DNA from: Phytomonospora endophytica
Lineage (GTDB): Bacteria > Actinomycetota > Actinomycetes > Mycobacteriales > Micromonosporaceae
DNA: 64,000 bases
NCBI RefSeq assembly: GCF_014202425.1
Contig: NZ_JACHGT010000024.1
Coordinates: 1-64,000 of the forward strand
Direction: 5' to 3'
Position numbers and translations under genes: made by a program. Below, one piece after another: positions 12,840-33,672 of the stretch (position 1 is the stretch's first letter; each line of letters opens with the position of its first letter). Under the pieces are notes generated by a model. It saw only the letters and a list, made by a program, of their open reading frames with translations. It made no database searches and was not told the DNA's origin.

Positions 12840-13318
12840 GGGCCTGGCTGGCGCTGTGGCGCTGCGGCCCGCTCGTCGTCGCGGCCGCGCTGGTGCCGGT
12901 TCCCTTCGCGCTGTCGGGAACCGTTCCGTGGACGCTTCCCCTGGCACTGGCGGTGACCGGCGCGCTGATGCGCTACGGCTCGAAGGGCTTCGTCGACTGG
13001 CGCGCCGCCCACCTCGACCGGATGTTGCGATCGACACCGGTCGTGCACCGGGGAGTGCTGCGGGCCCGCGCGGTCGCCGCCTGGGAGGTGCAGACCCAGA
13101 TGCGGCGGCGCTTCGGCCTCACCGACGCCGTCACCGATCCCGACGAGGACCTCCTGTCGGGTGCCGACGCGGTCCACTTCGCACTGTCCCCAACGGACGG
13201 TCGCTCGGCCGAAAGGCATGCCGAACCCGGCTGTGCGAGGGAGCCCGCCGAAAGCGTTTCGGTGGGGATAATGTTCGCGTGTCCCGACGTCCCCTCGAAG
13301 ACGCGCTCGTCACCCTAG
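12836..13318 (+). CDS. Small membrane protein (160 aa)
   Basis: Two hydrophobic segments (about residues 5-28 and 32-47) form a helical hairpin, followed by an Arg-rich cytoplasmic region (FVDWRAAHLDRMLR onward) and a low-complexity tail. Family not recognised. The ATG overlaps the previous stop by four bases. The 3' end overlaps the following gene by 40 bases because that gene's promoter and start lie inside this frame, so the last 15-20 residues may be unimportant for function. Confidence 0.65.
   Translation: MRAWLALWRCGPLVVAAALVPVPFALSGTVPWTLPLALAVTGALMRYGSKGFVDWRAAHLDRMLRSTPVVHRGVLRARAVAAWEVQTQMRRRFGLTDAVTDPDEDLLSGADAVHFALSPTDGRSAERHAEPGCAREPAESVSVGIMFACPDVPSKTRSSP
13267..13272 (+). promoter_or_regulatory. 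-10 element, leaderless start of XRE/NB-ARC gene
   Basis: GATAAT ends six bases before the GTG at 13279, inside the preceding gene. It is the closest match to a consensus -10 seen in the window. Confidence 0.6.
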
Positions 13319-15645
13319 GCAGGGCGATGCGCGCAGCGCGCGAACGTCGCGGCGTGTCCCTGCGGTCCATGGCCGCCCGTCTGGGATACGGGCACAGCGC
13401 CTTCACCGACTACGAACTCGGCCGGCGCCTGCCACCGCAGGACATCCTGGACGGCTACGAGAGCATCCTGGAGTTCAACGGCGGCCTGTCCGACCTGCGC
13501 CGGGCCGTGCTCACCCACCGTGCGATGGCCGCGCGCGGCGACCGGCCCGTCGCCCAGCTGCCCGCCGCGCCGGCCGTGTTCGTCGGCCGCGAGAGCGAAC
13601 TGGCCGCTTTACGGCGCCACGCCGAGACCGCCGCCGAAGGCGAACGCCCGGTGACCGTCCTGGTCCACGGGCCGCCCGCCGTCGGCAAGACCGCCCTCGC
13701 CCTGGCCGCCGCGCACACCGCCGCGCGGATCACCGGTGCCTTCGACACCGTGCTGCACCTCGAACTCGCCGACGCCGAACGCCCGATCGGCGCGGCCCTG
13801 CACTACATGCTCACCGCCCTCGGCGTCGGCGAGCCGGACATCCCGCCGTCCACGGCGGGGCGCTCGGGGCTGCTGCGTTCGCTGCTGGCGCATCACGGGA
13901 CGCTGATCGTCCTGGACAACGCCCTCAGCGCCCGCCAGATCGCGCCGCTGCTCCCCGGCGGGGGCCGCTCGCTGGTGCTGATCACGAGCCGTTCACGCTT
14001 CGCCGATCCGTCCATCGACCACGAGCTCGCGCTGCCCCCGCTGCCCGACGGGCACGCGACCGTCCTTTTGCGACGGTTGATCGGCGCCGAACGTTGCGAC
14101 GGGGAGCCCGAGGCGGTGGGCAGCGTGGTCGCCGCGTGCGCCGGATTGCCGCTGGCCCTGCGGATCGCCGCGCACCGGATCCTCGGCGCGCCCGACTGGC
14201 CGGTCGCGCACTACGCCGGCCAACTCTGCGACGAGCAGCGCCGGCTGGCGGCGCTCGACGTGCCCGGCGGGGAGGTCCGCGCCGCCTTCGACCTGTCCTA
14301 TGAAGCCCTGCCCGAGCCCGCGCGGGTGCTGTTCCGGCGGCTGGCGCACGTGCCGGGAGGCGTCGTCGGCGAACGGCACGCGGCCCTGCTGACCGAAGGC
14401 GGCGACGCCGCCGCGCTGCTCGCCGACCTGGCCACCGCGAGCCTGATCGCGCCGACCGAGCGGCCGGGCCGCTACCGCGTCCACGACCTGCTGCGGGTCT
14501 ACGCCGCCCACCGGCTGGACCTCGACGAGGCGCCCGAGCTGCGGGAGGAGGTGCGGGCGAAGCTGTTCGACCGCATGGTCGGCGAGGCGATCGCGGCCGG
14601 GCACGGGCTCACGCCGGGCGCCGAACCCGGCTACCCGGGTGGCAGCGAGGCCGCACTGTCCTTTCTGGACGAGGAGGCCGAGGGCGTCCTCGACGTGCTC
14701 GCCCTGCTGGCGCGGGAGCACGGCGAGATGGCGCCGCGCACGCTCGGCCGGCTCGTCGAGGCGATGGCCTGGTACTGCGACCACCGCTGCCGCTGGACCC
14801 TGCTGCGTTCGGTCGGGCGGCACGCCCAGACCCTCGCGGCACGACTCGACGACCCGCTGCTGGAAGCGGTGTCCCGCAACGCGATCGGGCTGTCCTACAG
14901 CGAGGGGAACCGTCCGGCCGCCGCCGTCGCCCATCTGGAGAAGGCACTCGTCGCCGCCCGTCGCGCGGGAGAGTGGGCCGAGGAGGCCGAGACGCACGGC
15001 TTCCTGGGGCTGGCCACGCGCAATCTCGGCCGCTTCGCCGAGGCTTCGGCGCATCACCGGGCCGCCCTGGCGATCTACGAGGGGCGCGGGCACAAGCGCG
15101 GGACCGCGCAGGAACTCGGCCGGCTCGGGCACGCGCTCAGCCTGCACGGCGAGTACGACGAAGGGCTGACGGAGCTCCGCCGCGCGCTGGGGCTCTGGCA
15201 GGCGCTGGACGCGCCCCGGTCGGCGGCGATGGCCCGCTACCGGCTGGCCGCCGTGTACATCCACTGTGGACGGGCGCTGGATGGGCTCGCCGAGGCCCGC
15301 GCCGCCCGCGCGGTCTTCGAAGAGGTCGCCGACACCTGGGGCATCGCCGCCGCCGGGCAGATCACCGGTGCCTGCGAGCAGGCCCTCGGCGAGCACGGCC
15401 GTGCCGTGACCGCGCTGCGTGAGGCCGCCGAGGGCTTCGACCGGCTTGCCGACCGCTTCCGCCAGGTCCAGACCCTGCGCGTCCTCGCCGGGGTCCACGC
15501 CGCGGCGGGCGCGACGGACGCCGCCGAGGCGGCCCGCCGCCGCGCGCTGCACATCCTGGGACAGCTGGAGTCCACGCCGGTCATCGCGGCCGAACGCGCG
15601 GTGCTGGAGGGGGTCGCGGGTGCGGAGGGGCCCCCGTTCTTGTGA
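13279..15645 (+). CDS. XRE-type HTH, NB-ARC ATPase and TPR protein
   Basis: 788-residue STAND-type signal-transducing regulator. An XRE helix-turn-helix occupies about 10-65 (SLRSMAARLGYGHSAFTDYE). Then comes an NB-ARC module: Walker A GPPAVGKT at 131-138, kinase-2 LIVLDNA, the sensor-like LITSRSR and CAGLPLALRIAA. A winged-helix section follows (FRRLAHVPGG), and from about 450 to the end TPR-like repeats (HLEKALVAARRAGEW, LGHALSLHGEYDEGLTELRR). ATP/ADP state would be controlled by a ligand or partner on the repeats and output would be DNA binding. The key motifs are intact, unlike the SARP pseudogene at 8.4 kb. The GTG start is inferred from a leaderless promoter and the HTH position. Confidence 0.88.
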   Translation: MSRRPLEDALVTLGRAMRAARERRGVSLRSMAARLGYGHSAFTDYELGRRLPPQDILDGYESILEFNGGLSDLRRAVLTHRAMAARGDRPVAQLPAAPAVFVGRESELAALRRHAETAAEGERPVTVLVHGPPAVGKTALALAAAHTAARITGAFDTVLHLELADAERPIGAALHYMLTALGVGEPDIPPSTAGRSGLLRSLLAHHGTLIVLDNALSARQIAPLLPGGGRSLVLITSRSRFADPSIDHELALPPLPDGHATVLLRRLIGAERCDGEPEAVGSVVAACAGLPLALRIAAHRILGAPDWPVAHYAGQLCDEQRRLAALDVPGGEVRAAFDLSYEALPEPARVLFRRLAHVPGGVVGERHAALLTEGGDAAALLADLATASLIAPTERPGRYRVHDLLRVYAAHRLDLDEAPELREEVRAKLFDRMVGEAIAAGHGLTPGAEPGYPGGSEAALSFLDEEAEGVLDVLALLAREHGEMAPRTLGRLVEAMAWYCDHRCRWTLLRSVGRHAQTLAARLDDPLLEAVSRNAIGLSYSEGNRPAAAVAHLEKALVAARRAGEWAEEAETHGFLGLATRNLGRFAEASAHHRAALAIYEGRGHKRGTAQELGRLGHALSLHGEYDEGLTELRRALGLWQALDAPRSAAMARYRLAAVYIHCGRALDGLAEARAARAVFEEVADTWGIAAAGQITGACEQALGEHGRAVTALREAAEGFDRLADRFRQVQTLRVLAGVHAAAGATDAAEAARRRALHILGQLESTPVIAAERAVLEGVAGAEGPPFL

Positions 15646-16496: not shown

Positions 16497-18614
16497 ATGG
16501 CCCCTGGCAATCCTGCTGCAAGCGAGACCGACGGCGGCCACCGCCCTCGCCGCGTTCTCCGATGGCTGCTGCCGGCCCTGGCGGTGCTCGCCTGGCTGGC
16601 CGTCGGCGGCCTCGGCGGCTCCTACACGGGCAAGCTCAGCGAGGTCACCACCAACGACTCCGCCGCCTTCCTGCCCGCCTCCGCCGAGGCGACCGAGGTC
16701 ACCGAACTGCTCCGCGGCTTCGACACCGACAGTGCCATCCCGGCCGTCGTCATCGCCGAACGGCCCGGCGGCCTCGCCCCCGGTGACGTCGAGTACCTCG
16801 CCGGCGTCGACTACGGCACGCGGGTCTCGCCGCCGCTGGAGTCCGACGACCACGAGGCCGCCCAGGTCATCGTGCCCCTGACCGGCGACCCCGGCGAAGG
16901 CGTCGAGAGCATCCGCGCGGCCCTCGCCGAACCGCCCGCCGGACTCACCGTCCTGGTCACCGGGCCGGCGGCCCAGGTCGCCGACCTCGGCGAGGCGTTC
17001 AAGGGCATCGACGGCCTGCTCCTGCTGGTCACCGCCCTCGTCGTCGGCCTCATCCTGGTCGTCGTCTACCGCTCGCCGCTGCTGCCGCTCGCCGTCCTCG
17101 TCTCCGGCGCCTTCGCGCTCGGCCTGGCCAGCCTCGCCGTCTACTTCCTCGCCGACGGCGGCGCCCTCGAACTCAACGGGCAGAGCCAGGGCATCCTGTT
17201 CATCCTCGTCTTCGGGGCCGCGACCGACTACGCCCTGCTGCTCGTCGCCCGCCTGCGCGAGGAGCTGCGCGACACCCCCGACCGCGTGGACGCCGTCCGC
17301 CGGGCCTGGCGCGCCACCATCGAACCCATCGCCGCCTCCGCCGGGACCGTCATCCTCGGCGTGCTCTGCCTTCTTTTCAGTGATCTCAACTCCAACCGCA
17401 CCCTCGGCCCGGTCGCCGCGATCGGCATCGGCGCGGCCTTCCTCGCCTCGGTCACCTTCCTCCCGGCCGTCCTCGCGCTGCTCGGCCGGGCCGCCTTCTG
17501 GCCGCGCCGACCCCTCGTCGGCTCGCCGCATCCCGAGGCGAGCGGTCTGTGGGCGCGGGTCGCGAAACTCATCGACGCCAAACCCCGCGCGGTCTGGATC
17601 GTCACCGTCCTCGTCCTGCTCATCGGCGTGGCCTTCGTGCCGCAGCTGAAGGCCGACGGCACCGCCCAGTCCGACATCTTCCTCACCGACGTCGACTCCG
17701 TGGCCGGTCAAGAGGCACTGTCGCGGCACTTCCCCGGCGGCAGCGGCTCCCCGACGGTCATCATCGCCCGGGCCGAGTCCGCCGACGCGGTCATCGCCGC
17801 CGCCCGGGTCGACGGCGTCGAGCAGGTCGGCCTGTCGGGACGTCCCGGCGAGGCGCCGAAGGTCGTCGACGGCCTCGTCCGCATCGACGCGGTCCTGTCC
17901 GACCCGAGCGACTCCGAGGACGCCGTCGACACCGTCTCCCGCATGCGCGAGGCCGTCCACGCCGTCCCCGGCGCCGACGCGAAGGTCGGCGGACCCACCG
18001 CGACCCAGCTCGACACCGAGAAGACCTCCGAACGCGACCGGAGCGTCATCATCCCCATCGTGCTGCTGGTGATCTTCCTGGTCCTCGCGTTGCTGCTGCG
18101 CTCGCTGCTCGCGCCGGTCCTGCTCATCGCGACCGTCGTGCTGTCCTTCGCGGCGACCATGGGCGTATCGGCGCTCGTCTTCAACGACGTCTTCGGCTTC
18201 CCCGGCGCCGACCCCGTCGTGCCGCTGTTCGGATTCGTCTTCCTGGTCGCACTGGGGATCGACTACAACATCTTCCTCATGACCAGGGTCCGTGAGGAGT
18301 CCAAGACCCTCGGCACCAGACGCGGAACCCTGCGCGGCCTGACCGTCACCGGCGGCGTGATCACCTCGGCCGGCGTCGTGCTCGCCGCGACCTTCTCGGC
18401 CCTGGCGGTCCTGCCGATCCTGTTCCTGGCGCAGATCGCGTTCATCGTCGCCTTCGGTGTCCTGCTCGACACGCTCATCGTGCGCTCGCTTCTGGTCCCG
18501 GCGCTCACCGTCGACATCGGACGGTGGATCTGGTGGCCGTCGAAGCTCAGCCGAGCCAGCGCCGAACGTAGTCCCCGTCCGGATCGAAGCGAGCCTGCTG
18601 GCGAACGGGATTGA
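16497..18614 (+). CDS. MMPL-family RND transporter
   Basis: 705-residue inner-membrane exporter of the MmpL/ActII-3 type, proton-driven, typically moving lipids or hydrophobic drugs. Duplicated layout: a membrane helix at about 20-42, an extracytoplasmic domain (about 45-175), five helices, then a repeat of the pattern from about 360. The proton-relay signatures are present in both halves: GAATDYALLLVARLREEL and VALGIDYNIFLMTRVREE. GGAGG precedes the ATG. It is probably controlled by the divergent MarR repressor. The last 22 residues are hydrophilic and overlap the convergent photolyase gene by 68 bases, so the tail may be a read-through extension. Confidence 0.92.
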   Translation: MAPGNPAASETDGGHRPRRVLRWLLPALAVLAWLAVGGLGGSYTGKLSEVTTNDSAAFLPASAEATEVTELLRGFDTDSAIPAVVIAERPGGLAPGDVEYLAGVDYGTRVSPPLESDDHEAAQVIVPLTGDPGEGVESIRAALAEPPAGLTVLVTGPAAQVADLGEAFKGIDGLLLLVTALVVGLILVVVYRSPLLPLAVLVSGAFALGLASLAVYFLADGGALELNGQSQGILFILVFGAATDYALLLVARLREELRDTPDRVDAVRRAWRATIEPIAASAGTVILGVLCLLFSDLNSNRTLGPVAAIGIGAAFLASVTFLPAVLALLGRAAFWPRRPLVGSPHPEASGLWARVAKLIDAKPRAVWIVTVLVLLIGVAFVPQLKADGTAQSDIFLTDVDSVAGQEALSRHFPGGSGSPTVIIARAESADAVIAAARVDGVEQVGLSGRPGEAPKVVDGLVRIDAVLSDPSDSEDAVDTVSRMREAVHAVPGADAKVGGPTATQLDTEKTSERDRSVIIPIVLLVIFLVLALLLRSLLAPVLLIATVVLSFAATMGVSALVFNDVFGFPGADPVVPLFGFVFLVALGIDYNIFLMTRVREESKTLGTRRGTLRGLTVTGGVITSAGVVLAATFSALAVLPILFLAQIAFIVAFGVLLDTLIVRSLLVPALTVDIGRWIWWPSKLSRASAERSPRPDRSEPAGERD

Positions 18615-19728
18615 AGCGGCGGTAGGGCTTGGAGTCGTTGCCCGTCCCGGCCGTCCACTGCCAGTTCCCGCAGTTGTTGGCGACGTCGGCGTCGAGCAGT
18701 CGTTCGGCGAACCAGGCCGCCCCGGCCCGCCAGTCGAGGCCGAGCGTCTTGGTCAGGTAGGAGGCGGTGATCATCCGCGCGCGGTTGTGCATCCAGCCCT
18801 CCGCGAGCAGCTGGCGCATACCGGCGTCGACGACCTCGACGCCGGTCTCGCCGGCCTTCCACTTCTCCAGGGCCTCGGGGTCGTCCGCCCAGTCGTCGTC
18901 GGCGTTCGGGCGGTAGGCCTCGGTGGCCAGCTTCGGGAAGGCCGCCAGGACCTGGTGGTAGAAGTCCCGCCAGCACAGCTGCCGGACGAACGCCGACGGC
19001 ACACGCGGATCGGTCGCCAGGGCCAGCGGTGAGACGCACCCGAAGTGCAGGTACGGGCTCAGCCGCGAGGTGCCGTCGACGGCCAGGGCGTCGTGCAGGT
19101 CGGCGTAGTCCGCCGACCGGGGCGCCCAGTCGTCGAGCCGGTCCTGCGCGGCCTGCTCGCCGCCGGGCATCAGCGGCGACGTCTTCGCCGCGCCGAGCAC
19201 CTTTCGCGGATCGTCGCCGGTGAAGCCGTCGGGCAGGCGGATGCTCGCCGGGGCCTCGCTCGGGTCGCGCCACGGCGCGGCCTCCCAGGCCCGCCAGTAC
19301 GGCGTGAAGACCTTGTAGTGGTCGCCGCCCGTGCTCGGCAGGACCTTCCCGGCGGGCACGACCGTGACACCGGGAAAGGTGCGGACCTCCAGACCGTGGT
19401 CGCGCAGGGACTTCTCGCGGGCCTTGGCGTAGGCAGAGACGTCGGAGGTGAGCGCGACCTGCCTCGTCCCCGCCTCGGCGGCCACCTTCGCGACGACCTC
19501 GGCCGGTGCGCCCTCGCGGACCAGGAGGTCCCCGCCGAGCCGCCGCAGGGATTCGCGCAGGTCGGCGAGGGACTCCGCCAGGAACCGCCGGCGCGGTGGC
19601 GAGGCCCTGATCGCCGGGTCGACGACGAACAGCGGCACCACCCGTTCGGCGACCGCGCAGGCCGAGGCGAGCATCGGGTTGTCGTGCACGCGGAGGTCGC
19701 GGGTGAAGAGCAGAACGATCGTGCGCAT
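18547..19728 (-). CDS. phrB: Deoxyribodipyrimidine photolyase
   Basis: 393-residue cryptochrome/photolyase family protein that repairs UV pyrimidine dimers with blue light and FADH-. N-terminal alpha/beta antenna domain starts VLLFTRDLRVHDNPML. The C-terminal FAD domain has ELCWRDFYH-type sequence (QLCWRDFYHQVL), MHNRARMITASYLTK and NNCGNWQWTAGTGND, all characteristic of bacterial class I CPD photolyases, including the Trp electron-transfer residues of the last motif. It is about 80 residues shorter than the E. coli enzyme, with a short linker. TAGCGT lies six bases before the ATG (leaderless). (6-4) specificity is unlikely but not excluded. Confidence 0.92.
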   Translation of the reverse strand: MRTIVLLFTRDLRVHDNPMLASACAVAERVVPLFVVDPAIRASPPRRRFLAESLADLRESLRRLGGDLLVREGAPAEVVAKVAAEAGTRQVALTSDVSAYAKAREKSLRDHGLEVRTFPGVTVVPAGKVLPSTGGDHYKVFTPYWRAWEAAPWRDPSEAPASIRLPDGFTGDDPRKVLGAAKTSPLMPGGEQAAQDRLDDWAPRSADYADLHDALAVDGTSRLSPYLHFGCVSPLALATDPRVPSAFVRQLCWRDFYHQVLAAFPKLATEAYRPNADDDWADDPEALEKWKAGETGVEVVDAGMRQLLAEGWMHNRARMITASYLTKTLGLDWRAGAAWFAERLLDADVANNCGNWQWTAGTGNDSKPYRRFNPVRQQARFDPDGDYVRRWLG

Positions 19729-19763: not shown

Positions 19764-21758
19764 TCAGACGCGCGGATTCCAGGCCAGCGCGAGATCGCCG
19801 ACGGTGTCGGTCCCACGCTGCTGCGGCGCCGGGAGGCCCCGCGCGACCAGTGCGGTCCGCAGATGCGGGAAGAGATGCGCGACGCGGATCAGCTCCTCGC
19901 CGTTGTCGATCCCCTGGCGCAGCAGGGAGACCAGTGCGCCGGTGAAGGCCGAGTGGCGCTCGCCTTCGGGCGCGTGGGCACGGCGGGTCGGCGAGGTCGC
20001 CGCGAGGATGTAGGTCCCGGCGATGTCGAGCTGGCCCGTGGGATCGCCGTACTCGGCGAGGGTGCCGACGGCACGGCCGGCGTAGCAGCAGTCGAGGACG
20101 ACGACGCGGTTGCGGGCCGGGCTGTCGCGGACGAGGTCGCGCAGGCGGTCGTAGGGGAGCGCGGAATGCTTGCGGCGGGGGAGTTCGGTGGCCTTGAGGC
20201 CGAGATAGAGATCGCCGTCGGATTCGACGAAGCCGTGCCCGGCGAAGTAGACGAGGAGGGTGTCGGTGGCGGACTCGGCGGCCTCGGCGATGCGAGGGAG
20301 GTCGGTGATCGAGGGGTCGAGGTGACGGTGGACGCGGGCGGGGTCGAAGGCGCTGGCGAGGACGTCGGCGAGGTCGGCGAGGTTGTTGGCGACGGCGGGG
20401 ATGTCGGGGAGGGCGGGGTCGTCGTAGGCGCCGGTGCCGATGAGGAGGGCGGTGGAGGCGGGAGCGTGGGGCAGGCGGGTCGGCGAGCGGGACGGCTTGG
20501 GGCGGGCGGGTTCCGGTTCCTCGGCGAGGGTGATCTCGGCGGCGGGGATACCGGTGAGATCGGCGATCGTGGCGATGACGTCGTCGAGGCCCACCGGCGG
20601 GGTCCCCTCATCGGCCGGTGCCTTCATGCGCCGTGCCGCGCCGACCTCGTCGAGCAGGCCGATGGCCTTCGCTGGCAGATGGCGGTCGGTGATGAAACGG
20701 TCGGCGAGTTCGGCGACGGCGGACAGAACGCCCGAGCCGAATGTGACGCCGTGGTGCTCCTCGTAGGTGTCCCGAACGCCCAGCAGCACGGCACGCGTCT
20801 CCGCCACCGACAGTTCCGGCACCGGGATCGGACGGCAGTGACTGTCCAGAATGGACCCGCGGGCGGCATGGCGGCGGTACACGTCCGGCGGCATGGTGAG
20901 GATGACCTGGAGATCCCCGCGCGCGATCAGGGACCAGAACACCGACGCGACCGAGCCGGGTTCGCTGCGGGGGTGCAGATCGAGGTACCGGTCGGCGTTG
21001 TGCACGCAGAGGAGCACCGAGGACGCCGTCGCGGCCTTTTCGAAGATCACGCGCAGGCGCCCCTCGAAGTCGGTGCTCCGGTCGGTGATGAGCTCGTGCC
21101 AGTCGATGAGGACGAGTTCGCGGTCGAGCAGCCGCGGGGGCGCCTCGCCCGCGGCGAGGCGCCGGGCCAGTCCATTGAGGACGGCGCGCCGGCCCACACC
21201 GGCCTCACCGATGAGCACGGGGTTGTTCCGGGACCGGAGGGAGAGGATCTGGACGAGGCGGTCGATCACGCCGTCGCGGTTCAGGGCCGGGCGGACCCGG
21301 CCCTCGCGGGCGGCCTGCCCGAGACGAACTCCGAAGGGGCTGGGACGCGTCACGGCGACACTCAACGCCGACAGGGATCCGTCGGCGCGGGAGAGCAGGG
21401 CCCGGCCGCCTTCGTGCCGCAACAGGCCGAGCAGCAGGTCCGAGGCCTCGACGCGCTCGCCGCCGACCGCGTGGGACTCGGCCTGCGCGAGGGCGAGAAC
21501 GCGCCGAAGCTCGTTCGTCGGCGGCACCGCCGGCCCGGCCTCGTGAGGGCGCGACGACGCTCGGGAACGCAGGTTCGAGTACTCGTCATCGAAGCCGAGA
21601 TCGATCAGGTGCCGCTGGACGGGACTTCGTACGGCGGTGAGCGCCCACAGCAGCTCGCCCAGACCGGCTTCGGTGGATCCCTGATCCCGCGCGCGCAGCC
21701 GCGCGGCGGTCATCACATCCTGTCCGTAGCCGTCTTCGAGGTTCCAGCTCGACGCCAT
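19764..21758 (-). CDS. Clp N domain / degenerate AAA / caspase (C14) fusion
   Basis: 664-residue cytoplasmic protein. Residues 8-125 are two Clp N repeats. Residues about 155-410 align with the first AAA module of ClpA/ClpB/ClpC (LNRDGVIDRLVQILSLRSRNNPVLIGEAGVG; C-lid TYEEHHGVTF..ITDRHLPAKAIGLLDEV). Every ATPase signature is altered: Walker A is GEAGVGRR (184-191, Lys to Arg), Walker B is LLCVHNAD where Clp has an FIDE core, and the arginine finger segment is LDSHCRP instead of LERRF. In place of the second AAA ring is a caspase-like domain (435-664) with intact YFAGH508GF and DCC558YAG dyad. Inferred: a Clp-like scaffold or sensor controlling a protease. A terminator hairpin lies 20 bases upstream; the gene is probably monocistronic. 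Confidence 0.88.
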   Translation of the reverse strand: MASSWNLEDGYGQDVMTAARLRARDQGSTEAGLGELLWALTAVRSPVQRHLIDLGFDDEYSNLRSRASSRPHEAGPAVPPTNELRRVLALAQAESHAVGGERVEASDLLLGLLRHEGGRALLSRADGSLSALSVAVTRPSPFGVRLGQAAREGRVRPALNRDGVIDRLVQILSLRSRNNPVLIGEAGVGRRAVLNGLARRLAAGEAPPRLLDRELVLIDWHELITDRSTDFEGRLRVIFEKAATASSVLLCVHNADRYLDLHPRSEPGSVASVFWSLIARGDLQVILTMPPDVYRRHAARGSILDSHCRPIPVPELSVAETRAVLLGVRDTYEEHHGVTFGSGVLSAVAELADRFITDRHLPAKAIGLLDEVGAARRMKAPADEGTPPVGLDDVIATIADLTGIPAAEITLAEEPEPARPKPSRSPTRLPHAPASTALLIGTGAYDDPALPDIPAVANNLADLADVLASAFDPARVHRHLDPSITDLPRIAEAAESATDTLLVYFAGHGFVESDGDLYLGLKATELPRRKHSALPYDRLRDLVRDSPARNRVVVLDCCYAGRAVGTLAEYGDPTGQLDIAGTYILAATSPTRRAHAPEGERHSAFTGALVSLLRQGIDNGEELIRVAHLFPHLRTALVARGLPAPQQRGTDTVGDLALAWNPRV

Positions 21759-31098: not shown

Positions 31099-31634
31099 GA
31101 CCCGCCCGGCTCCTCCAGGTGAGCGGCGAACGCCGCCACGTCCACATCGGACTCCCATGCGCCGGGCTCCTCGGCGTGGCCCTCGTGGCAGAGCACGAAC
31201 ATCCGGCGCAGACGCGGGACCGCGCGGTCGAGAACGTCGCGCCACCAGCTGGGATGGCTGGCGTCGCGCGCCGGGTCGTAGGCGTAGGCCCGCGCCTGCC
31301 ACAGCGCGCCCAGCTCCTCGACCGCGGCCGGATGCCGCCACCAGCAGGGCAGGACGACCCTGCGCAGCTGCTGGCGTTCGACGAGCCCGGCGACGAAGAC
31401 CGCCAGCTCGCCGAGCAGCCGCGCCCGCTCGGGTCCCGCCAGTGTGGACCAGTCCACGGCGGTACCGCGGGCCGGAGTCCGCGGCGGCTCCTCCAGCTTC
31501 CGGACGCGGGCTTCGAGGACGCCCTGCTGCTCGCGCGCGCGGTTGAGCTCCTGCTGGAAGGCCCGGATGGTGTTCAGCTGCTCGGCGAGGACCTCGGCGA
31601 GCTCGGTCGTGGAACTGTCGCTTGTGTCGGTCAT
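31095..31634 (-). CDS. Coiled-coil protein resembling DUF4913, third gene of caspase operon
   Basis: 179 residues. Residues about 10-55 form a coiled coil (LAEVLAEQLNTIRAFQQELN, then LEARVRKLEE). The rest contains LPCWWRHPAAVEELGALWQA, SHPSWWRDVLDRAVPRL and LCHEGH, an arrangement similar to the Trp/His-rich DUF4913 domain of actinobacterial proteins. That match is from memory and is tentative. Its ATG overlaps the WD40 stop (ATGA), so it is made with the WD40 and caspase proteins and may be their partner or substrate. Confidence 0.65.
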   Translation of the reverse strand: MTDTSDSSTTELAEVLAEQLNTIRAFQQELNRAREQQGVLEARVRKLEEPPRTPARGTAVDWSTLAGPERARLLGELAVFVAGLVERQQLRRVVLPCWWRHPAAVEELGALWQARAYAYDPARDASHPSWWRDVLDRAVPRLRRMFVLCHEGHAEEPGAWESDVDVAAFAAHLEEPGGS

Positions 31635-32683
31635 GTCGCTCGGGCTTCCTGTTCGGTGTCGGTGATGCGGTCGGACCCGCGGGTGTGGAGCGAGAGCCGC
31701 GGGCCGTGCCCGACGGCGAGCCGTCCGTCGGCGCCGAGGTCGAAGAGCGCGCCCTCGGCGGTGGTGGGCACACCGTCCACTTCGGAGCCGTCGGCCAGGT
31801 CCCAGGCCCGGATGCGCAGGTCCTCGGCGGAGGTGACGAGCACGTCGCGGCCGTCGAGCCGCGCGAAGCGGACCTTGGTGGTCGGTCCCGCGTGGCCTTC
31901 GAGGCTCAGGACGGGCCGGCCGGTGCCGGCGTGCCAGACGCGGACGAGGCGGTCGCCCGTGGTGGCGGCGAGGTCGCGGTGCAGGGCGATGTCGTGGACC
32001 CAGCCGTCGTGGGCGCGGATCCGGTAGTGCGGGCGGGATCGGGCGAGGTCCCAGCCGATGACCTCGCCGTCGTCGGAACCGCTGAGCAGGTGCGGGCCGT
32101 CGGCGGCGAGCGCGCCGACGGGAGCGGTGTGTCCATGAAGGACGGTCCCGCCGGAGTCGTCGTCGAGGTCCCACACCCGGACGGTGCCGTCCTCTCCGCC
32201 GGTCGCGGCCAGGCCGGACGCGAGGAACCGGGCGCAGTAGACGGCGTCGCGGTGGCCGCGCAGGGTTCGCCGCGGCCGGGTCGTCGCGATGTCCCAGACG
32301 ATGGCCGTCAGGTCGGCGGACGCGCTCAGGACGAGCACGCGTCCCTTGTGGACGCCCATGGCCAGGCTGTGGATCACGCCGTCGTGTCCCCGGAGCACGC
32401 CGTGTCCGCGGCCGCTCGCCGGATCCCAGAGCCGGACGGCGAAGTCGTCGCCGCTGCTGGCGCACAGCGGTGTGCGGCCGAGCGGGTCGCCGATGAGCCG
32501 CCTGGCCGGGCCGTCGTGCGAGCCGAGGACGGTCGCCTCGCCGTCGGCGCCGAAGAGCGTGACACGGCCGTCGACGTCGGCGGTGAGCAGGCCGTGGGCT
32601 GTGCCGAGGACACCCCAGATGAGGTGCTCCTCAAGGGTTCCGGGACTGAGGGGGAGACGCCTGGTCCAGGACTCGGTCCACAT
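31631..32683 (-). CDS. Seven-blade WD40 beta-propeller protein
   Basis: 350 residues made almost entirely of seven WD40 repeats, without signal peptide or extra catalytic domain. Blade ends are visible as VRLWDPASG, AIVWDIATT, VRVWDLDDD, VIGWDLARS, VRVWHAGTG and IRAWDLADG, each preceded by GH-type turns (LRGHDGVIHS, LRGHRDAVYC, LHGHTAPVGA, LEGHAGPTTK). Propellers like this act as protein-binding platforms. It is transcribed with the caspase gene (start eight bases after that stop, GAGGAG upstream) and overlaps the coiled-coil gene by four bases, so it probably presents targets to, or senses signals for, the caspase. Confidence 0.88.
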   Translation of the reverse strand: MWTESWTRRLPLSPGTLEEHLIWGVLGTAHGLLTADVDGRVTLFGADGEATVLGSHDGPARRLIGDPLGRTPLCASSGDDFAVRLWDPASGRGHGVLRGHDGVIHSLAMGVHKGRVLVLSASADLTAIVWDIATTRPRRTLRGHRDAVYCARFLASGLAATGGEDGTVRVWDLDDDSGGTVLHGHTAPVGALAADGPHLLSGSDDGEVIGWDLARSRPHYRIRAHDGWVHDIALHRDLAATTGDRLVRVWHAGTGRPVLSLEGHAGPTTKVRFARLDGRDVLVTSAEDLRIRAWDLADGSEVDGVPTTAEGALFDLGADGRLAVGHGPRLSLHTRGSDRITDTEQEARAT

Positions 32684-32691
32684 GTGACGGA

Positions 32692-33672
32692 TCAGCTCCT
32701 CGGCCTTTGGCGCGTGGTGGGCGGTGGCGGTTCGGGGCCGCGCTCGGGGGCCGCGCCGGGTGTCGCGTCGAGCATGGACGACCGCTCGGCGTTCGGGACG
32801 ACCTGGGCCCCGCCCGGCCCGCGGGCCGCACTCGACCGGAGGAAACTCGAATAGGAGGAACCGGCCTTTCGGCCGCCGCCGGTGAGGACGGCCGGTGCGG
32901 TGAGCCGCGACCGGCCGGCCTCCGCCGGAGCGGCCTTGACATTGTGCGCCCACGGTGGCGCGGGCGGGGTGCTGCGCTTGAGCAGCGGAAGGGCGCCGTC
33001 GCCGCGGATGAGGTGTTCCGGCGTCTGATCACCCTCCCGGTCCCGCATCTCCCGGAGCAGAGCCTCGGCCAGCATGCTCAGCGAGACGGGGTCGGTCGCG
33101 GACCGCACGAAAGTGCCGAGGCAGTCCACGAGCGCGCCCGTGTACCGCGATAAGGGTTCGCCCGGAACGGCGAAGGACGGCCGGGTGCGCATACTGGAGG
33201 CGAGGATGGCGACGCTGCTGCGAGCCGATCCGGCCGACAGCGCCCCCGGCAGATACGTGGCGGCACCACTGAAGCACGAGTCGAGGACGAGCACCTTCAG
33301 CTTCGCGCCGATCTTCCCCAGCGCCCGCAGCGCCGCCGCGAGGGAGTAGCAGTACTGCTCGTAGTCCCTCTTGTAATAGGTGCTGCGAGTCGCGAAGTAG
33401 ATGTCCTCGTGGTCCTCGTCCAGAAAGGCGTGCCCGGCCAGGTACAGCAGGAACACGTCGTCCCCGGTGACCTTGCCCGCCGAGATCTGCAGATCCTGCT
33501 CGATCTGCGACTGCACGGGGTTCTTGGTCGACTCGACGACGAAACCCCAGTGCGGCAACGCGTCCTTGAGGGCCTCGACGTTGGTGCCGGCGGCCGGCAG
33601 ATCCTCGATGCCGCAGCCGTCCTGGTAGCTGCTCATGCCGTACAGCCGCGCGTACCGTCTCCCGATCTCCAC
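32692..33672 (-). CDS. Caspase-like (peptidase C14) protein
   Basis: 326 residues. The caspase fold occupies about 1-235: an initial strand YARLYGMSSYQDG, then LPAAGTNVEALKDAL, the His loop LYLAGH81AF and the Cys loop VLVLDSC133FSGAA, giving an intact Cys/His dyad. ASSMRTRPSF and the SRYTGALVDCL helix follow as in bacterial homologues. The last 90 residues are Pro/Ser/Ala-rich and probably disordered. The GTG at 33672 keeps the first strand; an ATG at 33636 is possible but would truncate the fold. Specificity is likely Arg/Lys or Asp, not deducible. First gene of a three-gene operon with WD40 and coiled-coil proteins. Confidence 0.88.
   Translation of the reverse strand: MEIGRRYARLYGMSSYQDGCGIEDLPAAGTNVEALKDALPHWGFVVESTKNPVQSQIEQDLQISAGKVTGDDVFLLYLAGHAFLDEDHEDIYFATRSTYYKRDYEQYCYSLAAALRALGKIGAKLKVLVLDSCFSGAATYLPGALSAGSARSSVAILASSMRTRPSFAVPGEPLSRYTGALVDCLGTFVRSATDPVSLSMLAEALLREMRDREGDQTPEHLIRGDGALPLLKRSTPPAPPWAHNVKAAPAEAGRSRLTAPAVLTGGGRKAGSSYSSFLRSSAARGPGGAQVVPNAERSSMLDATPGAAPERGPEPPPPTTRQRPRS

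Follow-up and report, generated by a model that had tools for sequence, protein, structure and literature searches.

In STAND-caspase platforms such as Apaf-1 and the apoptosome, a P-loop module is the assembly switch for a caspase. Among bacterial conflict systems, the two-gene pairing of EACC1 (Pfam PF19953) with a caspase has been described as System 4 by Kaur et al. 2020 (PMC7159879), who propose EACC1 as the membrane sensor that activates the caspase, and in whose system the architecture is mostly that of an N-terminal caspase followed by variable C-terminal domains. The C-terminal partners named there include “Clp-like proteases,” an arrangement that, judging from the text, is not the Clp-caspase architecture considered here (PMC7159879). 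A third point of reference is mycobacterial ClpC2, a homologue of the ClpC N-domain that binds a ClpC1-directed toxin, serving as sensor and sponge of the ClpC1-targeting cyclomarin (PMC10030653).

The gene that is the subject of this work is found in Phytomonospora endophytica, a soil actinobacterium, on contig NZ_JACHGT010000024.1, of which the first 64,000 nucleotides were analysed (the window). Like System 4, its product couples an actinobacterial C14 caspase, recognizable as a caspase-superfamily peptidase by its Pfam match (1.5e-10) and conserved dyad, to a variable partner domain, and EACC1 lies beside 7 of the 11 fused homologues. Unlike System 4, the ClpC-derived module is N-terminal and the caspase C-terminal (residues 429-664), no EACC1 gene lies 5' of the window gene, and in two relatives (G375, G160) EACC1 lies 3' of the fused gene; the absence of EACC1 and the C-terminal position of the caspase mean that the window gene is not a formal member of System 4. 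With respect to ClpC1, the Clp_N repeats, D1 and lid are homologous, and the UVR/M region is kept in some relatives, whereas D2, the ClpP loop, Walker B, the pore loop and sensor 1 are missing and a caspase takes the place of D2. A ClpC unfoldase combines D1 with D2 and requires intact Walker A/B motifs and a pore loop for threading, and the window protein has neither combination; the His-Cys dyad in a caspase fold that characterizes the C14 family is, on the other hand, present (His508 and Cys558, in a low-confidence model resembling MALT1 and caspases). The presence of a P-loop module together with a caspase is analogous to Apaf-1 and the apoptosome, but the module is of the Clp-type AAA+ rather than the STAND class, is fused in cis, and has a degenerate nucleotide site. 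Finally, ClpC2 is likewise a ClpC N-domain homologue without an unfoldase, but it carries no AAA or protease domain and autoregulates its transcription (PMC10030653), and the drug-contact Phe of repeat 2 is missing from the window protein. As judged by its homologues and their gene neighbourhoods, Clp-caspase is a new variant attached to the known EACC1-caspase conflict network, of which the window protein is best read as an EACC1-free offshoot.

Anatomy of the Clp-caspase protein

The features of the gene, with the evidence for each, are as follows.

19764..21758, minus strand: Clp-caspase open reading frame P0002, 664 aa (translation, Pfam, codon-position GC, full-length homologues)
21345..21737, minus strand: two diverged Clp_N repeats, residues 8-138 (hhalign, AlphaFold2 helices, identity to the ClpC1 N-domain)
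20823..21341, minus strand: pseudo-AAA+ large domain, ClpC D1-like, residues 140-312 (phmmer to ClpC1 structures, D1 identity)
21186..21209, minus strand: degenerate Walker A, GEAGVGRR, residues 184-191, Arg190 for Lys (D1 alignment)
21057..21083, minus strand: pore loop 1 site, DRSTDFEGR against YRGDFEER in ClpC, aromatic pore residue gone (D1 alignment)
20991..21014, minus strand: degenerate Walker B, LLCVHNAD, residues 249-256, His-Asn for Asp-Glu (D1 alignment)
20829..20849, minus strand: degenerate arginine-finger segment, LDSHCRP, residues 304-310, LERRFQP in ClpC (D1 alignment)
20604..20813, minus strand: AAA lid (AAA_lid_9), residues 316-385 (Pfam, 4e-18)
20475..20603, minus strand: linker, residues 386-428, without the UVR/M-like insert that some relatives have (alignment, Pfam)
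19767..20474, minus strand: caspase (C14) domain, residues 429-664, with His508 and Cys558 (Pfam 1.5e-10, dyad, Foldseek)

The reading frame is intact, with an ATG at 21758 and a stop at 19764, so that the coordinates given in the original prediction are correct, the strand, which had been left out, being minus. Codon-position G+C values of 0.76/0.51/0.89 are those of a genuine high-GC gene, and homologues align across the whole length of the protein; a chance or antisense open reading frame is ruled out by this codon-position bias and the 11 homologues. Pfam recognizes AAA_lid_9 at residues 317-384 (4e-18) and Peptidase_C14 at 436-627 (1.5e-10), and returns no Clp_N match in the window protein, a domain that it does detect in 9 of the 10 other fused homologues. 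In a profile-profile comparison by hhalign, the N-terminal regions of three proteins (the window protein, the paralogue from its own genome and the counterpart in genome G007) matched ClpC N-domains with 98.2% probability, and the AlphaFold2 model, used for residues 1-380 only, displays two N-terminal helical repeats (helices within 11-136). Foldseek searches with this N-terminal model retrieved ClpC, ClpB, ClpA and Hsp104, while those with the caspase, modelled separately at low confidence (pLDDT 64), retrieved MALT1 and caspases. Mycobacterial ClpC1 aligns by phmmer to residues 114-383 (2.9e-46), with 21% identity in the N-domain and about 40% in D1; phmmer matches stop at about residue 383-414, and the protein has a single D1-like AAA+ module and no D2. 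The caspase motifs are GHG, containing His508, and LDCCYAG, containing Cys558. Agreement between hhalign, phmmer and Pfam thus bears out the architecture originally proposed (two Clp_N repeats, a ClpC-type D1 and a C-terminal C14 caspase in 664 aa), and each of the motifs quoted with it is present: GEAGVGRR with Arg190, LLCVHNAD, LDSHCRP, His508 and Cys558. A scan of genome contigs with the full protein yielded canonical ClpB/ClpC, since the pattern NNPVLIGE is universal.

Motor residues are lost and the caspase dyad is kept

The alignment of D1 modules from the 11 fused proteins indicates that several motor residues have disappeared throughout. The canonical Walker B Glu is missing in all 11 (Asp in 6, Asn in 3, Arg in 1 and Gly in 1), as are the YRG motif of pore loop 1 and the GATT motif of sensor 1, whereas arginine fingers are mixed. 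The Walker A Lys, in contrast, is kept in 8 of the 11; it is replaced by Arg in the window protein, by Thr in its paralogue and by Ala in G007b. The window protein itself lacks this Lys, both Walker B acids and the arginine finger. The caspase His-Cys dyad is kept in all 11 proteins, in which about 30 further caspase positions are also invariant. The ClpC-derived module is therefore, as far as residues can tell, very probably unable to work as a motor, and loss of the Walker B Glu, pore loop 1 and sensor 1 in every member makes this a trait of the family, while the change from Lys to Arg is a matter of one sublineage.

These observations qualify the suggestion of a “non-hydrolysing scaffold” in the original prediction, which also raised the question of whether the loss of the Walker A Lys is fixed in the clade. 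The loss of motor residues in all members agrees with the suggestion, but the loss of Lys is not fixed (3 of 11), so that most members may still bind nucleotide, and the presence of Asp for the catalytic Glu leaves room for some hydrolysis in the 6 proteins that have it. It is in this light that one can consider an ATP-driven unfoldase that still works and feeds clients to its own caspase, the latter replacing D2 and ClpP. The architecture, the Walker A Lys of 8 proteins and the Glu-to-Asp exchange of 6 would accommodate such a machine; nevertheless, all 11 proteins have lost pore loop 1 and sensor 1, none has the canonical Asp-Glu pair, and the window protein has no Lys, acids or arginine finger, which makes it highly improbable.

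The same alignment bears on decay. It had been anticipated that homologues with intact Walker motifs in most members would make the window protein a decayed copy; most members do retain the Walker A Lys, but not Walker B. A simple decayed ClpC is ruled out by the conserved caspase and by the family-wide pattern of motor loss. The window gene could instead be the remnant of a fusion that was once active and linked to EACC1, given that the lineage of the window genome (G000) and G007 has lost EACC1, the Walker A Lys and the N-domain Phe, and displays dN/dS of about 0.8. Full-length reading frames at both loci in both genera, the dyad and some 30 invariant caspase positions, and a caspase dN/dS below that of the other domains speak against such a remnant, which we consider quite improbable.

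Distribution and origin of the fusion

Fusions of AAA and caspase domains number 11, in 8 of the 355 genomes of the host's family and in 6 genera. The window genome has two (the window gene and its paralogue on contig C5), G007 also has two, G372 has a tandem pair, and G375, G160 (in which AAA is present and Clp_N absent), G100, G020 and G096 have one each. An order-wide caspase search detected caspases with other partners and no Clp fusion, and a class-wide search for lid plus caspase detected no fusion outside the host's family, an absence that is inexact since both searches scored no more than the 3-7 best candidates of each genome. Plasmids and phages gave caspase-only or Clp-only matches and no full-length fusion, and a full-text literature search for both Pfam names together returned no paper. 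The Clp-caspases are, on the strength of these searches, a rare, lineage-restricted and real family.

In the caspase tree, all 11 fused caspases fall in a clade of 12 (SH-aLRT 99), whose remaining member is a trypsin-caspase of G007, and in the D1 tree the fused proteins are separated from canonical Clps with support of 98/93; the host's own ClpC1 is 90% identical to a Micromonospora ClpC1, in keeping with a place in the Micromonosporaceae. The simplest reading of these trees would be a single origin, in which a caspase replaced D2 behind a ClpC N-domain and D1, although several branches are long. The trypsin-caspase locus (L130, 8116-10352) encodes trypsin-like and caspase domains in overlapping reading frames that are in different frames.

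EACC1 and the chaperone partners of related caspases

The small gene that adjoins many of the fused genes encodes EACC1 (PF19953, E-values of 1e-15 to 1e-32). It is next to 7 of the 11 fusions, being located 5' of those in G100, G020 and G096, between the two G372 genes (5' of G372b), and 3' of those in G375 and G160. No EACC1 was found at the two loci of the window genome or at the two of G007, and a search for an EACC1 gene hidden beside the window gene found none, the three EACC1 genes of this genome being on contigs C4, C6 and C20. The four EACC1-free fused genes include all 3 without the Walker A Lys and all 4 without the Phe of repeat 2, an association that, involving two syntenic pairs in two related genera, amounts to at most one or two evolutionary events and not to independent support. 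No defence island was identified around the window gene, for which PADLOC returned a weak caspase match (8.7e-4).

Caspases associated with other components of protein quality control were also encountered. In G190 (L222, 6520-9827), EACC1, a caspase-TPR protein and a separate ClpC N+D1 without D2 are encoded by consecutive genes, together an unfused counterpart of Clp-caspase; the ClpC N+D1 protein is 85% identical to ClpC1 in the N-domain and 55% in D1. At L223 (5333-8491), a caspase is fused to full-length DnaK with EACC1 upstream, and at L167 (8803-10638) an Hsp70-like ATPase N-terminus is joined to a C-terminal caspase, again with EACC1 upstream. Two Streptomyces plasmids carry a caspase-domain match directly after a small unnamed gene, with an annotated dnaK next in one of them; the caspase and dnaK arrangement on plasmid NZ_CP108815 of Streptomyces sp. 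NBC_00868 (L268) resembles that of L223. L166 encodes four Clp_N repeats and a caspase, and at L160 (6238-6687) a standalone two-repeat Clp_N protein of 149 aa, resembling the N-domain part of ClpC2, adjoins the two tandem G372 Clp-caspase genes that have EACC1 between them. The recurrence of caspase-DnaK, Hsp70-like-caspase, Clp_N-caspase and split ClpC N+D1/caspase/EACC1 arrangements suggests that the caspase systems of actinobacteria commonly use proteostasis factors as bait or sensor.

Divergence at syntenic loci

Synteny pairs the window locus with G007:C1 and the locus of the paralogue on contig C5 with G007:C3. The fused proteins of these pairs are 39% and 37% identical, with dN/dS values of 0.83 and 0.81 (NG86, a crude estimate at 71% GC) and dS somewhat above that of the flanks, whereas flanking proteins at the same two loci are 68-87% identical, with dN/dS of 0.18-0.51. 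Identity by domain is 25-26% for Clp_N, 26-33% for the AAA large domain and 44-49% for the caspase, so that divergence decreases in the order ClpN, AAA, caspase, and dN/dS is lower in the caspase than in the other domains. Conflict genes typically combine a changing sensor with a kept effector, and the fast divergence observed here fits this pattern, but relaxed constraint or gene replacement may account for it. Replacement or conversion at these loci is made possible by the caspase tree, in which the window protein does not group with G007a, its syntenic partner. At the second (epimerase) locus, the fused gene is present only in the window genome and G007 among the 30 relatives' loci examined. 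The EACC1 link (7 of 11), the caspase-plus-chaperone relatives and the fast divergence of the sensor half are what this analysis adds to the original prediction.

Proposed mechanism

The reading that we favour, to which about an even chance can be given from the sequences, is that of a caspase-type suicide or regulatory effector that would be controlled in cis by a non-motor, ClpC-derived sensor or assembly module. The pseudo-AAA and Clp_N part would serve for sensing or as a platform for assembly; on binding a trigger, which could be a protein from an invader, a client that is misfolded or an inhibitor directed against ClpC, it would change its conformation or oligomeric state, and caspase domains could then meet by induced proximity, process themselves and cleave host or invader proteins, with dormancy or death as the outcome. 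In the EACC1-linked branch, the signal would originate at, or end at, the membrane. The EACC1-free sublineage of the window protein is probably triggered by the binding of a protein rather than by ATP, since both the nucleotide site and the ClpC-like N-domain pocket have degenerated. If true, what controls this bacterial caspase would be a dead version of the protein-quality-control machine that the cell itself uses, in an arrangement reminiscent of the guarded decoys of plant immunity and of the apoptosome, and the protein would be a probable trip-wire by which the cell digests itself upon interference. The family also offers a natural series, from ClpC1-like N-domains with EACC1 to diverged, EACC1-free ones, which is suited to asking what the Clp part senses.

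A more specific possibility is that the protein is an integrated decoy that guards ClpC1, its Clp part mimicking the N-domain of the cell's own ClpC1 and being bound by ClpC1-targeting phage proteins or antibiotics, which would thereby fire the caspase. Identities to ClpC1 in the N-domain and D1 are 77/34 for G020, 59/32 for G096, 52/37 for G372b and 85/55 for L222, the N-domain being far better kept than D1, which is the reverse of what is seen in ordinary Clp paralogues (29/66, 21/66). In addition, the Phe of Clp_N repeat 2, with which ClpC proteins contact cyclomarin, is retained by 6 of the 6 EACC1-linked members that have Clp_N, and G372 has a separate Clp_N-only gene beside its Clp-caspase pair; mycobacterial ClpC2 provides a precedent (PMC10030653). 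The window protein, however, has Pro at the Phe position, its two GTEH motifs lack their acidic residues, and its N-domain shares no more than 21% identity with that of ClpC1, so that a decoy suits the EACC1-linked sister branch better than the window protein. Such a decoy is on the whole unlikely, and it is an equally tentative proposition that a dead copy of ClpC1 has been wired in cis to a suicide caspase, the EACC1 branch keeping bait and membrane partner and the window branch having adopted new triggers.

A role that involves no suicide can also be envisaged, in which a regulatory protease of development or proteostasis would perform limited cleavages, its Clp part recruiting clients or adaptors or joining ClpC1 rings. 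Clp_N is a substrate- and adaptor-binding domain, caspases need not be killers, and two loci have been kept in two genera, all of which would suit such a protease. However, no more than 8 of the 355 family genomes have the fusion, the epimerase locus lacks a fused gene in the other genera examined, the sensor half diverges fast, and relatives are linked to EACC1, which renders this role rather doubtful.

Other genes near the Clp-caspase gene

A DNA photolyase gene (18547-19728, minus strand) starts 35 bp downstream of the Clp-caspase gene on the same strand, making an operon possible; the gene that follows the G007a counterpart encodes an alpha/beta hydrolase, not a photolyase. Elsewhere in the window (31631-33672, minus strand), a caspase reading frame of 326 aa (32692-33672) overlaps one for a WD40 propeller (31631-32953) in another frame, which appears to be a caspase-WD40 gene split by a frame change, be it a sequence error, decay or a programmed shift. 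A 929-aa protein with HTH, NB-ARC/AAA_16 and TPR regions, a STAND-type regulator, is encoded at 12856-15645 on the plus strand.
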